64,000 nucleotides of DNA, from the NCBI GenBank assembly GCA_022565695.1, contig JAIUME010000006.1, forward strand, positions 1 through 64,000. The letters are read 5' to 3'. This document shows positions 57,525-60,387 of the stretch, piece after piece. The notes under the pieces were generated by a model that did no database searches, was not told the origin of the DNA, and saw only the letters and a program-made list of their open reading frames with translations. Positions within the stretch are counted from its first letter, which is position 1. Each line of letters opens with the position of its first letter. The position numbers and the translations under genes are program-made. This DNA comes from Alcanivorax sp. GTDB taxonomy: Bacteria > Pseudomonadota > Gammaproteobacteria > Pseudomonadales > Alcanivoracaceae.

Positions 57525-58628
57525 TCACAAACGGCCACTGATCTCCCGCAGCAGCGCAGCGGTGTTGTCCCAGCCGAGGCACCCATCCGTGATCGACACA
57601 CCGTACTCGAGCGCCCCGTCGCCGGACTGGCGACCCTGGTGCAGATGGCTTTCCAGCATGACCCCGGCAATCGCCGACTGTCCGGCGCCTTCTCCTGCGC
57701 GACGTTGCGCCAGCAGATCGCGCAGCACCGCAGGCTGGTTGTCCGGGTGCTTGCCACTGTTGGCGTGGCTGCAATCCACCATCAGGCGCGGGTTGACGCC
57801 GGCCCGCACCAGCGCGGCCTGCGCCCGGGCAATGCTGTCAGCATCGTAGTTGGGGCCGCCATTGCCGCCACGCAGCACCAGATGCGTATCCGGGTTACCG
57901 GCGGCCAGCAGCATCGCCGGATGCCCCTGGGTATCGACGCCGAAATGCCGGTGGCCGTGGGCTGCCGCGCCCATGGCATCCACCGCCACGCTCACCGAGC
58001 CATCGGTACTGTTCTTGAAGCCCACCGGCAGGCTCAGTGCGCTGACCATCTCCCGATGCACCTGGGACTCCGTGGTGCGTGCACCGATTGCGGCCCAACT
58101 GAGCAGGTCGTCGATGTAGCCTGCCGCCATGGGATGTAGCAACTCGGTGGCCAGCGGCAGCCCGAGACCGGTCAGATCCCGCAGCAGACGCCGGGATATC
58201 TCCAGCCCGGCCACCATGTCATGGCTGCCGTCCAGATGCGGGTCGTAGATCAGCCCTTTCCAGCCCACAGTGGTGCGCGGTTTTTCGATGTAGGCGCGCA
58301 TGACGATCAGCAGCGAATCACTGAGCTCCTCGGCCAGTGCCGCCAGGCGAGCACCGTAGTCCAGTGCCGAGGCAGGATCATGCAGGGAGCAGGGGCCGGC
58401 GATCACCAGCAGGCGTGTATCGTCGCCGTGCAGCACGGCGCGTACCGCATCGCGATGGGCATGGATCTGCTGTGTCAGTGCCGGTGACAGCGGCAGCCGC
58501 GCGCGCAGCTCTGCGACGGTGGGCAGGCGCTGGCTATGGCGGATGCCGCGTGTCTTGTCGGCTAGAGAGCTGGCTGTTGCGTCGGCGGCCAGTGCGGCGC
58601 TGGCTGGCGAGTGTAAAGAGGCGTTCAT
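57525..58628 (-). CDS. aroG: class I 3-deoxy-7-phosphoheptulonate synthase (DAHP synthase)
   Basis: 367-residue class I DAHP synthase, the entry step of aromatic amino acid synthesis. Conserved regions: LLVIAGPCSLHDPASALDYG, RAYIEKPRTTVGWKG, DPHLDGSHDM, PLATELLHP, SWAAIGARTTESQVHRE, GFKNSTDG, VLRGGNGGPNYD, LMVDCSHANSGK and GVSITDGCLGWDNT, with metal and PEP ligands in place. ATG 58628 is chosen because AAGGA lies eight bases upstream; the longer open frame from 58802 runs through the attenuator and is not coding. Leader peptide and terminator lie immediately upstream, implying control by aromatic amino acid charge. Which paralogue (AroF, G or H type) is not clear. Confidence 0.92.
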   Translation of the reverse strand: MNASLHSPASAALAADATASSLADKTRGIRHSQRLPTVAELRARLPLSPALTQQIHAHRDAVRAVLHGDDTRLLVIAGPCSLHDPASALDYGARLAALAEELSDSLLIVMRAYIEKPRTTVGWKGLIYDPHLDGSHDMVAGLEISRRLLRDLTGLGLPLATELLHPMAAGYIDDLLSWAAIGARTTESQVHREMVSALSLPVGFKNSTDGSVSVAVDAMGAAAHGHRHFGVDTQGHPAMLLAAGNPDTHLVLRGGNGGPNYDADSIARAQAALVRAGVNPRLMVDCSHANSGKHPDNQPAVLRDLLAQRRAGEGAGQSAIAGVMLESHLHQGRQSGDGALEYGVSITDGCLGWDNTAALLREISGRL

Positions 58629-58683
58629 GTTCTGTGTCCTTGATCTGTCGTGTCTTGCGTCTGCTGCCCGGCAATCGCCGGGC

Positions 58684-58720
58684 AATAAAAACCCCCGGTG
58701 GGGACAGGCCGACCGGGGGT
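58684..58720 (-). terminator. attenuator terminator upstream of DAHP synthase gene
   Basis: On the minus strand a stem of nine pairs (58720-58712 with 58699-58691) with a 12-base loop is followed by a T-rich tract (58690-58684), that is, a rho-independent terminator. It lies between the leader peptide stop (58771) and the DAHP synthase start (58628). Upstream, CAGGCG can pair with two GCGCCTG/ACGCCTG copies on either side, offering alternative structures. Confidence 0.8.
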
Positions 58721-58770
58721 GTTGGGGTGTTCGGTCAGGCGTCCCTGTTACTGGGGCGCCTGCGGGGGTA

Positions 58771-58926
58771 TCAGGCGCGCCAGTGGCTGAACCAATACCC
58801 ATAGAAAAACGCGACGCGCGGCAGTGCAGCCAGCAGGCTGCGGCCGGTGCGAGGGGAGCGTAACTGACTGTGTAGCTGACTGGGTGGCTGACTGTGCAGC
58901 TGTCGTGGTGCGGACAGGCGTTGCAT
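58771..58926 (-). CDS. aromatic-rich leader peptide of the DAHP synthase attenuator
   Basis: A 51-codon ORF on the minus strand (ATG 58926, TGA 58773-58771), preceded by AGGA seven bases upstream. It ends with FFYGYWFSHWRA, so its last dozen codons include three Phe, two Tyr and two Trp. The part before it is Gln/His/Ser-rich and repetitive (QLHSQ twice). The stop codon overlaps the first arm of a hairpin (GCGCCTG pairing with CAGGCGC), as in classical attenuators. Ribosome stalling at the aromatic codons would favour antitermination and DAHP synthase expression. The length is greater than in most leaders. Confidence 0.8.
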   Translation of the reverse strand: MQRLSAPRQLHSQPPSQLHSQLRSPRTGRSLLAALPRVAFFYGYWFSHWRA

Positions 58927-58971
58927 CAGAGCGTCCTCATGCGCGAAAAAATAAAGGGTAACCCGATTCAG

Positions 58972-58984
58972 ATGACAGTGTCAT
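58972..58984. promoter_or_regulatory. 13-bp palindrome upstream of the aroG leader, candidate operator
   Basis: ATGACA and TGTCAT half-sites surround one base. Located about 50 bp upstream of the leader peptide start and probably near its promoter. It could bind a dimeric repressor; no known factor was matched. Confidence 0.35.
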
Positions 58985-59004: not shown

Positions 59005-60387
59005 CTATAGCTGTGTGCTATCAGGCGGCGGCAGGGCCTTCAACTGCCCCTGCACCACGCCCAGCCGACCGGTGCGCACCGCGTTGCGGCGAATGCCGGT
59101 GACCGGAGAAATCATGAACAGATCACCGTTGCGGCCGGTCAATTGCCGCGGTACGCCGCTGGCCCGGGCGATGTCGGCATTGGCTCGCATGTGCTCAGGC
59201 TCGCCGTGCACCGGTATGGCCAGCGTGGGCCGCACCCACTGATACATAGCCTCCAGCTCTTCGCTGGCCGGGTGGCCGGAGGCATGGATGGGCAGGGCGC
59301 TGTCATCGGCGGTGACAACCTCGACGCCACGTTGCTGCAGCCGGGTGATCAGGCTGGCCACCGCGTCTTCATTGCCGGGAATGATGCGGGAGCTGAAAAC
59401 GACACGGTCACCCGGTGCCAGGGTCAGGTCCGGGTGGGCGTCCACGGCCAGCCGATGGAGCGCGGTGCGCGGCTCCCCTTGGCTGCCGGTGGCCACCGCC
59501 AGCACTTCTTCGGGCGGCAGATAGCCAAGGTGTGCGGGCTGGATCGGCACCACCGCATTTTCCCAGACGCCGGTGGCGCGGGCCGCCGACACCATATTCA
59601 CCAGGGAGCGGCCGAGCAGACCCAGATAGCGGCGGGATTCACCGGCGATGCGGGCCAGGGTGTGCAGCCTGGCGATATTGCTGCCGAAGCAGGCCACCAC
59701 CACGCGGCCCGGCGCCCCGGCAATCGCGTCATGCAGGCCGCGATACAGGCTGCCCTCGGAGCCGGAGTGGCCGGTGACCAGCGCATTGGTGGAATCACAG
59801 ATCATGGCGTCCACGCCCTCATCGCCAAGCGCACAAAACGCCAGGCGGGAAAAGCCGCTGCCGATCACCGGCGCCGCATCCAGCTTCCAGTCCCCCGTGT
59901 GAAAGATATTGCCGGCGGCGGTGCGAATCATCAGCGCGTTGGGCTCGGGGATGGAGTGGGTCAGGGTCAGCCATGTGAGGTTGAATACGCCCACCTGATG
60001 TGTGGTGCCGGCGGTTATTTCGATAATGGGCACCTGGCCGCTGAGCCCGGTTTCCGCCAGCTTGCGGCGCAGTACTTCGGCGGCAAACGGCGTGGCGTAG
60101 ACCGGGCAGCGCAGCTGGTCCCAGAGCCAGGCGACAGCGCCGATATGGTCTTCATGGGCATGGGTGATGATCAGCCCGGCCAGTTGCTCACGGCGCGCGG
60201 TGATGAAAGCCGGATCGGCCATCTGCACGTCCGCACCGGCATGGCCCGGCTGCCCGGCCCGGGAAAAGGTGACGCCGCAATCCACCATCAGCCACTGATG
60301 ATTGTGGCCGTAGAGGTTGAGGTTCATGCCGATCTCGCCGCAACCGCCGAGGGGCAGGAACCAGAGGTCGTCGTGTTCAGGGTTCAT
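59005..60387 (-). CDS. RNase J-like metallo-beta-lactamase/beta-CASP protein
   Basis: 460-residue beta-CASP ribonuclease of the RNase J family. The zinc site is THAHEDHIGA (His76, His78, Asp80, His81), preceded by LGGCGEIGMN and MVDCGVTF, typical of RNase J. The beta-CASP part contains MICDSTNALVTGHSGSE, ATGSQGEPRTALHR and IPVHGEPEHM with the late histidine. It lacks most of the C-terminal oligomerisation domain, since family members are about 550 residues. RNase J is not the main RNA-decay nuclease in gammaproteobacteria, where RNase E dominates. Possible alternative: a related exonuclease of short RNA. It is upstream of the attenuator on the same strand. Confidence 0.87.
   Translation of the reverse strand: MNPEHDDLWFLPLGGCGEIGMNLNLYGHNHQWLMVDCGVTFSRAGQPGHAGADVQMADPAFITARREQLAGLIITHAHEDHIGAVAWLWDQLRCPVYATPFAAEVLRRKLAETGLSGQVPIIEITAGTTHQVGVFNLTWLTLTHSIPEPNALMIRTAAGNIFHTGDWKLDAAPVIGSGFSRLAFCALGDEGVDAMICDSTNALVTGHSGSEGSLYRGLHDAIAGAPGRVVVACFGSNIARLHTLARIAGESRRYLGLLGRSLVNMVSAARATGVWENAVVPIQPAHLGYLPPEEVLAVATGSQGEPRTALHRLAVDAHPDLTLAPGDRVVFSSRIIPGNEDAVASLITRLQQRGVEVVTADDSALPIHASGHPASEELEAMYQWVRPTLAIPVHGEPEHMRANADIARASGVPRQLTGRNGDLFMISPVTGIRRNAVRTGRLGVVQGQLKALPPPDSTQL

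Follow-up and report, generated by a model that had tools for sequence, protein, structure and literature searches.

The leader preceding a type I DAHP synthase gene in the window, the whole 64,000-nucleotide stretch of Alcanivorax sp. DNA analyzed here, is very probably a ribosome-mediated transcription attenuator that would make the enzyme answer to the supply of charged tRNA-Phe, tRNA-Tyr and tRNA-Trp together. The initial annotation had already proposed an attenuator sensing these three amino acids, and the proposal is well supported by comparison, through conservation, coevolution, codon content and a folding model. It had missed that the element belongs to the Rfam family P15, that its architecture has the six arms of the his type and not the four of the trp type, and that relatives carry a second upstream ORF (uORF). 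It also gave no strand; leader, terminator and DAHP synthase gene all lie on the minus strand. Sequence comparison, set out below, establishes the leader ORF and its codon bias, the terminator, the coevolution of the helices, and the conservation and synteny of the element.

The controlled gene (57525–58628) encodes a 367-residue protein that starts with the ATG at 58628, behind the Shine–Dalgarno sequence AAGGA, and matches PF00793 and NF009395 (494 bits against a cut-off of 343). Against the AroG equivalog model it scores 375, short of the cut-off of 568, so the name aroG used initially should read aroF/G/H-type DAHP synthase. A type I DAHP synthase acts in the biosynthesis of the very amino acids that the leader would sense. 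The 51-codon leader ORF described initially, with its good ribosome-binding site, is found at 58771–58926; it starts with ATG, ends in FFYGYWFSHWRA-stop and carries a Shine–Dalgarno-like GAGGA (58934–58938) 7 nt 5′ of the ATG. Its aromatic C terminus, which is conserved in relatives, contains the putative sensing run FFYGYWF (TTT TTC TAT GGG TAT TGG TTC; 58789–58809). The window contains 835 ORFs of 15–100 residues that have a start codon; the leader ORF alone has six or more F/Y/W in the last 12 codons (it has seven), and none of the 26,591 ORFs from 20 block shuffles of the window reaches seven. The aromatic run is therefore not a chance reading.

Between the leader and the structural gene lies the rho-independent terminator that the initial annotation had reported, about 60 bases from the DAHP synthase gene. 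Its stem pairs ACCCCCGGT (58712–58720) with ACCGGGGGT (58691–58699) and is followed by a T run to 58684. A perfect 7-bp hairpin, GCCCGGC-GATT-GCCGGGC (58666–58683, minus strand), sits between the terminator and the Shine–Dalgarno sequence of the DAHP synthase gene. The leader RNA can be divided, from 5′ to 3′, into six arms, in which helices 1:2, 3:4 and 5:6 compete with 2:3 and 4:5. Arm 1, GGGTAT (RNA GGGUAU; 58795–58800), is paired in the Rfam consensus structure with arm 2b, ATACCC (RNA AUACCC; 58766–58771). Arm 2a, GCGCCTG (RNA GCGCCUG; 58772–58778), overlaps the leader stop codon and is the partner of arm 3, CAGGCGCCCCAGT (58750–58762), which offers CAGGCGC to arm 2a and GGCGCCC to arm 4. 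Arm 4, GGGACGCCTGACCG (58732–58745), would pair with arm 3 to terminate or with arm 5 to antiterminate. Arm 5, ACCCCCGGTCGGCCTGTCCC (58701–58720), comprises the 5′ arm and loop of the terminator, and arm 6 (58684–58699) comprises ACCGGGGGT and the U tract. Arms 2a and 5 were placed by folding, partner swapping and sequence and arm 6 by a terminator scan and sequence; as RNA, arms 3 to 6 read CAGGCGCCC, GGGACGCCUGACCG, CGGUCGGCCUGUCCC and ACCGGGGGU. The 130-nt RNA folds better than its dinucleotide shuffles (z of −2.9, with 1 of 200 shuffles as good).

This region is a full-length match, in sequence and structure, to RF00627 (P15, 'Pseudomonas sRNA P15'). The match spans 58692–58813 on the minus strand and model positions 1–119 of 119, and its covariance-model score of 80.1 bits exceeds the gathering score of 70; the Pseudomonas matches examined precede the same DAHP synthase. 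Rfam files P15 as a stand-alone sRNA, whereas we read it as a terminated attenuator leader. At gathering thresholds, P15 was the only Rfam family in the window and in 7 of the 17 loci scanned, with no metabolite riboswitch or T-box, and a consensus search found no sigma-70 promoter.

We infer stalling, termination and a response to starvation along the following lines. With all three aromatic amino acids plentiful, a ribosome would reach the leader stop codon and mask arm 2; arms 3 and 4 would then pair, leaving arm 5 free for arm 6, and the terminator would end transcription. The short RNA left by termination is taken to be P15. With any one of the three scarce, the ribosome would halt on the FFYGYWF run and cover arm 1, allowing 2:3 to pair and arm 4 to capture arm 5, and transcription would read through.

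A folding model with explicit ribosome positions is consistent with this scheme. In the window, the RNA exposed by a ribosome stalled on the run folds as 2:3 plus 4:5. Assuming a footprint of 13 nt and computing the probability of helix 3:4 just before arm 5 emerges, we obtained 0.60–0.83 for an A site on any of the four codons preceding the run. The value fell to 0.00 at each codon of FFYGYW, was 0.11 at the following F, rose to 0.84 across SHWRA and stood at 0.62 on the stop codon. In the model, then, it is the aromatic run that works the switch: helix 3:4 is predicted to be lost only when the A site lies on it. The last W, in HWRA, falls outside the switching run and is replaced in relatives. 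Across 37 representative leaders, aromatic codons coincide with low 3:4 probability at odds ratios of 5.1, 5.2 and 2.8 for footprints of 10, 13 and 16 nt. The profile depends on the assumed footprint: 31 of the 37 representatives show the expected switch at 10 nt, 28 at 13 nt and 16 at 16 nt. Among the 17 leaders profiled singly, the probability of 3:4 never drops below 0.5 in L121, L122, L177 (of the window's family) and L212. Because arms and codons lie together by design, these profiles speak for consistency and do not amount to independent proof. A model without a ribosome favors 2:3 (0.78 versus 0.10 for 3:4 in the window), and we therefore left termination of an untranslated leader out of our reading. 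Likewise, the minimum-energy fold of the full RNA combines the terminator with 2:3, so antitermination would have to be kinetic.

We compared the window's DAHP synthase with 195 genomes of its order, drawn without regard to the leader. The matches listed include 31 orthologs of at least 56% identity, counting the window's own, and every one of them has an aromatic leader and a terminator upstream; some of these leaders were set by hand from the sequence under a looser T-run rule. An aromatic leader with a terminator also precedes three more distant copies at 50–53% identity (L200, L212 and L223) and the genes at L121 and L122, whose family lies outside this order. The initial annotation had named a search for the peptide ORF and terminator in relatives as a check and loss of the aromatic run as grounds for rejection; ORF and terminator recur at all 31 listed orthologs, and all eight families keep a run of this kind, though not with one fixed sequence.

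The roughly 50% identical paralog has no such leader in the loci examined. Only one of its 30 best-scoring loci (L129–L158) passed the leader filter, L145, where the ORF ends beside a possible start codon of the gene and leaves no room for a terminator. A looser filter also flagged L129, L142 and L156, none with the leader motif. Among 16 further second copies (L233–L248), two (L236 and L240) passed a loose filter, neither of them leader-like. No aromatic leader was found upstream of the second DAHP synthase in the window's own genome (contig 11).

A scan of an 84,980-species genome collection with the pattern YW[F/L][S-like]HWRA returned at least 118 loci. Of those listed, 112 are titled Pseudomonas, and one each comes from an Alcanivorax metagenome-assembled genome (MAG; L026) and an unclassified gamma-proteobacterium (L078); the other four (L040, L044, L082 and L112) are chance matches, in which the pattern stands in other contexts and the enzyme is absent. 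L026 is 80% identical to the window in its DAHP synthase and 78% in the upstream RNase J-like gene, levels that make an Alcanivorax-like origin of the window probable. In the window, that gene (59005–60387, minus strand) encodes a beta-CASP protein that scores below the RNase J model cut-offs and lies directly upstream of the leader; it adjoins the attenuator in L026 as well. Two candidates, L123 and L125, were dropped, with RF00627 scores of 29.8 and 28.4 bits and no DAHP synthase in the stretch fetched. The same held for the enzyme in 9 of 40 R1 matches fetched (L205, L206, L211, L216, L221, L224 and L226–L228). Many weak R1 matches may therefore be due to chance, and the tally of 174 of 390 genomes was not used.

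The leader peptides diverge widely while keeping their aromatic character. Their endings include FFYGYWFSHWRA, YFFYGYWFSQRRA, GYFYGYWFSRSSA, FFGFSYWYWFSPGVPGGRVT, FWYWGYWFSAGVPAARSD, FAFYGYWFSHGVPLADA, FFWWFGYGFYFSQSRGRP, YWQFGFGYFYFSQEPGCH and AYFYFWQFR. From 153 distinct leaders we hand-picked the 37 representatives, which come from eight families (family labels are automatic, except for the hand-assigned L002, L003 and L078 in f3 and L026 in f1). All 37 have an ATG-started leader ORF containing Phe, Tyr and Trp. Aromatic residues make up a share of 0.38 over the last 15 codons versus 0.05 before, so that the translatable ORF is rich in codons for the amino acids under regulation. These codons are biased: Phe TTT:TTC is 62:19 in leaders versus 17:76 in genes (Fisher P of about 5 × 10−15), and Tyr TAT:TAC is 66:16 versus 51:128 (Fisher P of about 2 × 10−15). 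The sensor would gain in sensitivity if ribosomes are slower at the codons used less often.

Coevolution of the switch helices provides a further line of evidence. We exchanged arms between the 37 representatives and compared native with swapped duplexes in 2,000 permutations, a procedure that does not remove relatedness. Native partners pair better by 3.8–5.0 kcal/mol in 2:3 (−23.1 versus −18.1 kcal/mol), 3:4 (−19.6 versus −15.8 kcal/mol) and 4:5 (−19.6 versus −15.4 kcal/mol), with 0 of 2,000 permutations as good in each case, whereas the control pairings 2:4 and 3:5 gave 161 and 1,986 of 2,000. In 500 draws of one sequence per family, native partners were better every time for 2:3, 3:4 and 4:5, in 86% of draws for 2:4 and in 7% for 3:5. 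The test favors 3:4, because most representatives came from searches with models or patterns that include this helix, and because the native fold, at its apex, served to delimit its arms; in alignment A1, L122 aligned poorly. For the protector hairpin 1:2, the difference is small (−13.8 versus −13.0, 26 of 2,000) and lends weak support. Given the negative controls, partner swapping indicates that the three exclusive helices 2:3, 3:4 and 4:5 evolved together, as a switch requires, and the overlapping alternative stems that the initial annotation had noted, with covariance as a proposed check, are supported across eight families.

Single sequences are less telling. We compared duplex energies with dinucleotide shuffles, counting rank 5 of 100 or better as a pass. 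Helix 2:3 passes in 16 of 17 sequences of f1, the window's family, and in 8 of 99 of f3, which is mostly Pseudomonas. Helix 4:5 passes in none of 17 in f1, 3 of 99 in f3, 3 of 18 in f4, 2 of 12 in f200, 2 of 3 in f215 and none of 4 others; in the window it ranks 26 of 100. Because they are seldom exceptional against shuffles, 4:5, and 2:3 in f3, rest on coevolution. The joint conservation of 2:3, 3:4 and 4:5 that marks the his type thus emerges from partner swapping and more weakly from shuffles, and the antiterminator, which is exclusive with the terminator, has coevolving partners but is negative in single-sequence shuffles. We think that 4:5 fails against shuffles of the spacer in most single sequences because nearly every G-rich spacer can pair with the C-rich arm of the terminator.

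These observations bear on what the leader RNA and its peptide could be otherwise. P15 could be a trans-acting small RNA with its own targets, its place before the DAHP synthase gene being incidental or secondary. Such a role would agree with its filing in Rfam as a gene and its detection among the sRNAs of Livny et al. (available text of PMC2375449), and terminated leaders can act in trans, as peTrpL does according to the text available (PMC7298713). We consider it very unlikely, given that P15 precedes the same ortholog at all 31 listed loci (56% identity or more) and carries an ATG-started, aromatic-rich frame with a codon bias, and that its helices coevolve in the pairings of a switch; an additional trans role beside attenuation is compatible with all of this. 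It is still less probable that the leader encodes a nascent-chain arrest peptide, similar to TnaC, that senses free aromatic amino acids and not tRNA charging. Pseudomonas loci show an almost invariant YWFS core, which is also frequent in the window's family, as might be expected of an arrest peptide, but the C terminus, which such a peptide should conserve, varies freely (HWRA, RSSA, HGVPLADA, SQSRGRP, RDRHA and QFR), and the aromatics differ in order and spacing from one family to the next. Moreover, the core is constant at synonymous sites too (TATTGGTTTAGC in 117 of 148 leaders with such a motif), which points to constraint on the RNA. Lowest in our estimation, with hardly any weight, stands a functional small protein of 51 residues. 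The leader ORF does begin with ATG in all 37 representatives, but codon-position differences of 1,564/2,172/2,489 among near leaders of the pattern-scan loci give little sign of selection on the peptide outside the aromatic run, so we doubt that the peptide itself is a product, and neither the window peptide nor one Pseudomonas leader matches Pfam or NCBIfam.

Control by a DNA-binding protein is the remaining alternative to attenuation as the main mechanism. The initial annotation contrasted the locus with enterobacterial control by TyrR and TrpR, and indeed neither TyrR (TIGR04381) nor TrpR (TIGR01321) has a match in the window's genome; among 14 control genomes, each model finds E. coli only. 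It also pointed to a palindrome 46 bp upstream as a potential repressor site. We located ATGACAcTGTCAT at 58972–58984 (no strand assigned), 45 nt from the leader start codon. This palindrome, ATGACAnTGTCAT, is the only perfect match in the genome and one of 15 sites at one mismatch or fewer (the other 14 have one mismatch), versus 1 for the reversed pattern, and may be the operator of some regulator. It is conserved in the Alcanivorax MAG L026. It is absent, however, from L171 and L172, which are automatically placed in the window's genus and keep the attenuator. Repressor control at the palindrome is thus possible but would not be general, and we regard a scheme in which such a repressor dominates and the attenuator is minor as unlikely.

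In relatives, mostly Pseudomonas, a second aromatic-rich uORF (ORF2) lies between the terminator and the DAHP synthase gene. A rule-based search found it in 145 of 175 loci, a set that counts the window's locus three times (L001, L127 and L174), each as a miss. By family, ORF2 is present in all f3 loci except two copies of the window's locus, in 16 of 18 in f4, 5 of 17 in f1 and 1 of 2 in f215, and is absent by rule from f200 (0 of 9), f2 (0 of 1), f188 (0 of 1) and f164 (0 of 2); L215, L232 and L200 have aromatic short ORFs in the same position that the rule missed. We did not find ORF2 in the window, L026, L171 or L172. An example is MNYATYYRYDSFTAWRFTSLRSGQPAASDRSPTGGKHTHAANPANCRTPQ in L002 (L002:1256–1408, plus strand), with equivalents in, for example, L196, L194 and L177, and the core UGGCGAUUUA is identical in all 144 with the WRF motif. 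Three ORF2 peptides gave no match in Pfam or NCBIfam, and Rfam at gathering thresholds found nothing there in 17 loci. A −1 frameshift at UUUAG in the two uORFs was ruled out, as 44 of 144 ORF2 have UUUACC.

The second half of ORF2 carries a conserved H-type pseudoknot, CGGUCGG/CCGACCG with GCCACC/GGUGGC, with compensatory changes (for example, L196:635–706). It is a feature of the long ORF2 only, since 19 loci with a short ORF2 lack the region and were left out before counting. In alignment A2, which holds 36 of 101 distinct sequences (all 14 from f4 and 22 of the Pseudomonas type chosen for diversity), 95.4% of cells are paired versus 91.1% in shuffles (0 of 500), and four pairs are changed on both sides (5 of 500 shuffles). 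Covariation scores 0.174, a value reached by 0 of 500 shuffles and above the maximum of 0.126 for slid versions. The structure was drawn from the same 36 sequences, and one pair is broken in 18 of them. In f4, ORF2 stops on or close to the gene's start codon, and in L190, L194 and L202 its stop codon overlaps an in-frame ATG of the DAHP synthase (ATGA), which suggests translational coupling. ORF2 might accordingly be a second, translational read-out of the same signal. We tentatively propose, with somewhat less than even confidence, that P15 is a triple-aromatic attenuator of the his type, and that Pseudomonas and several related families sense aromatics in two layers, of which it is the first. 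ORF2 with its UGGCGAUUUA core would be the second layer, joined by the pseudoknot in most Pseudomonas and f4 and bringing translation under the same signal in f4, and the window's genus would have kept the first layer only.

The his operon attenuator of Salmonella and E. coli, with stems A to F, forms hairpins 1:2, 3:4 and 5:6 and the alternatives 2:3 and 4:5. We read the P15 leader as having the same six-arm layout, its 1:2 hairpin with weak support, and Phe, Tyr and Trp codons in place of a His run; this is a likeness of layout, for which we claim no homology. The trp attenuator (trpL) has four arms and a leader with Trp codons, and sets a terminator against an antiterminator. Leader codons for the regulated amino acid are common to both systems, whereas P15 has six arms and would read three amino acids. 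The proteobacterial attenuator studies of Panina (2001) and Vitreschak (2004) may have predicted this element. Among open-licence papers, we found none linking P15 to attenuation, and the one apparent mention of RF00627 proved to be a false match ('orf00627').

Related leaders have been described elsewhere. The aroF leader of Corynebacterium glutamicum, from an actinobacterium, likewise places aromatic codons (Phe-Tyr-Phe) before a DAHP synthase gene, with no Trp named in the available text (PMC4046766). In Vibrio, putative attenuators precede DAHP synthase–tyrA operons, and thus a type I DAHP synthase as here; they are database predictions, and the term 'leader peptide' is absent from the main text of that paper (PMC1173090). 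A report of 282 P. aeruginosa genes with early 3′ ends does not name P15, PA1750 or aroF in its main text (PMC8297930), and the available text of another contains no mention of P15, aroF, aroG or DAHP (PMC2965389). As far as the searched papers show, an aromatic leader before a DAHP synthase gene is of a known kind; what is new is that it would take three inputs through six arms, that P15 is reinterpreted and that relatives add a second layer.

The attenuator reading would give a function to an RNA that Rfam lists as an sRNA. It would also show how a genome without detected TyrR or TrpR sets entry to aromatic biosynthesis, with one RNA reading three end products via the ribosome. Finally, it would offer a comparative case of an evolving six-arm attenuator, in which the switch helices drift together in many lineages.
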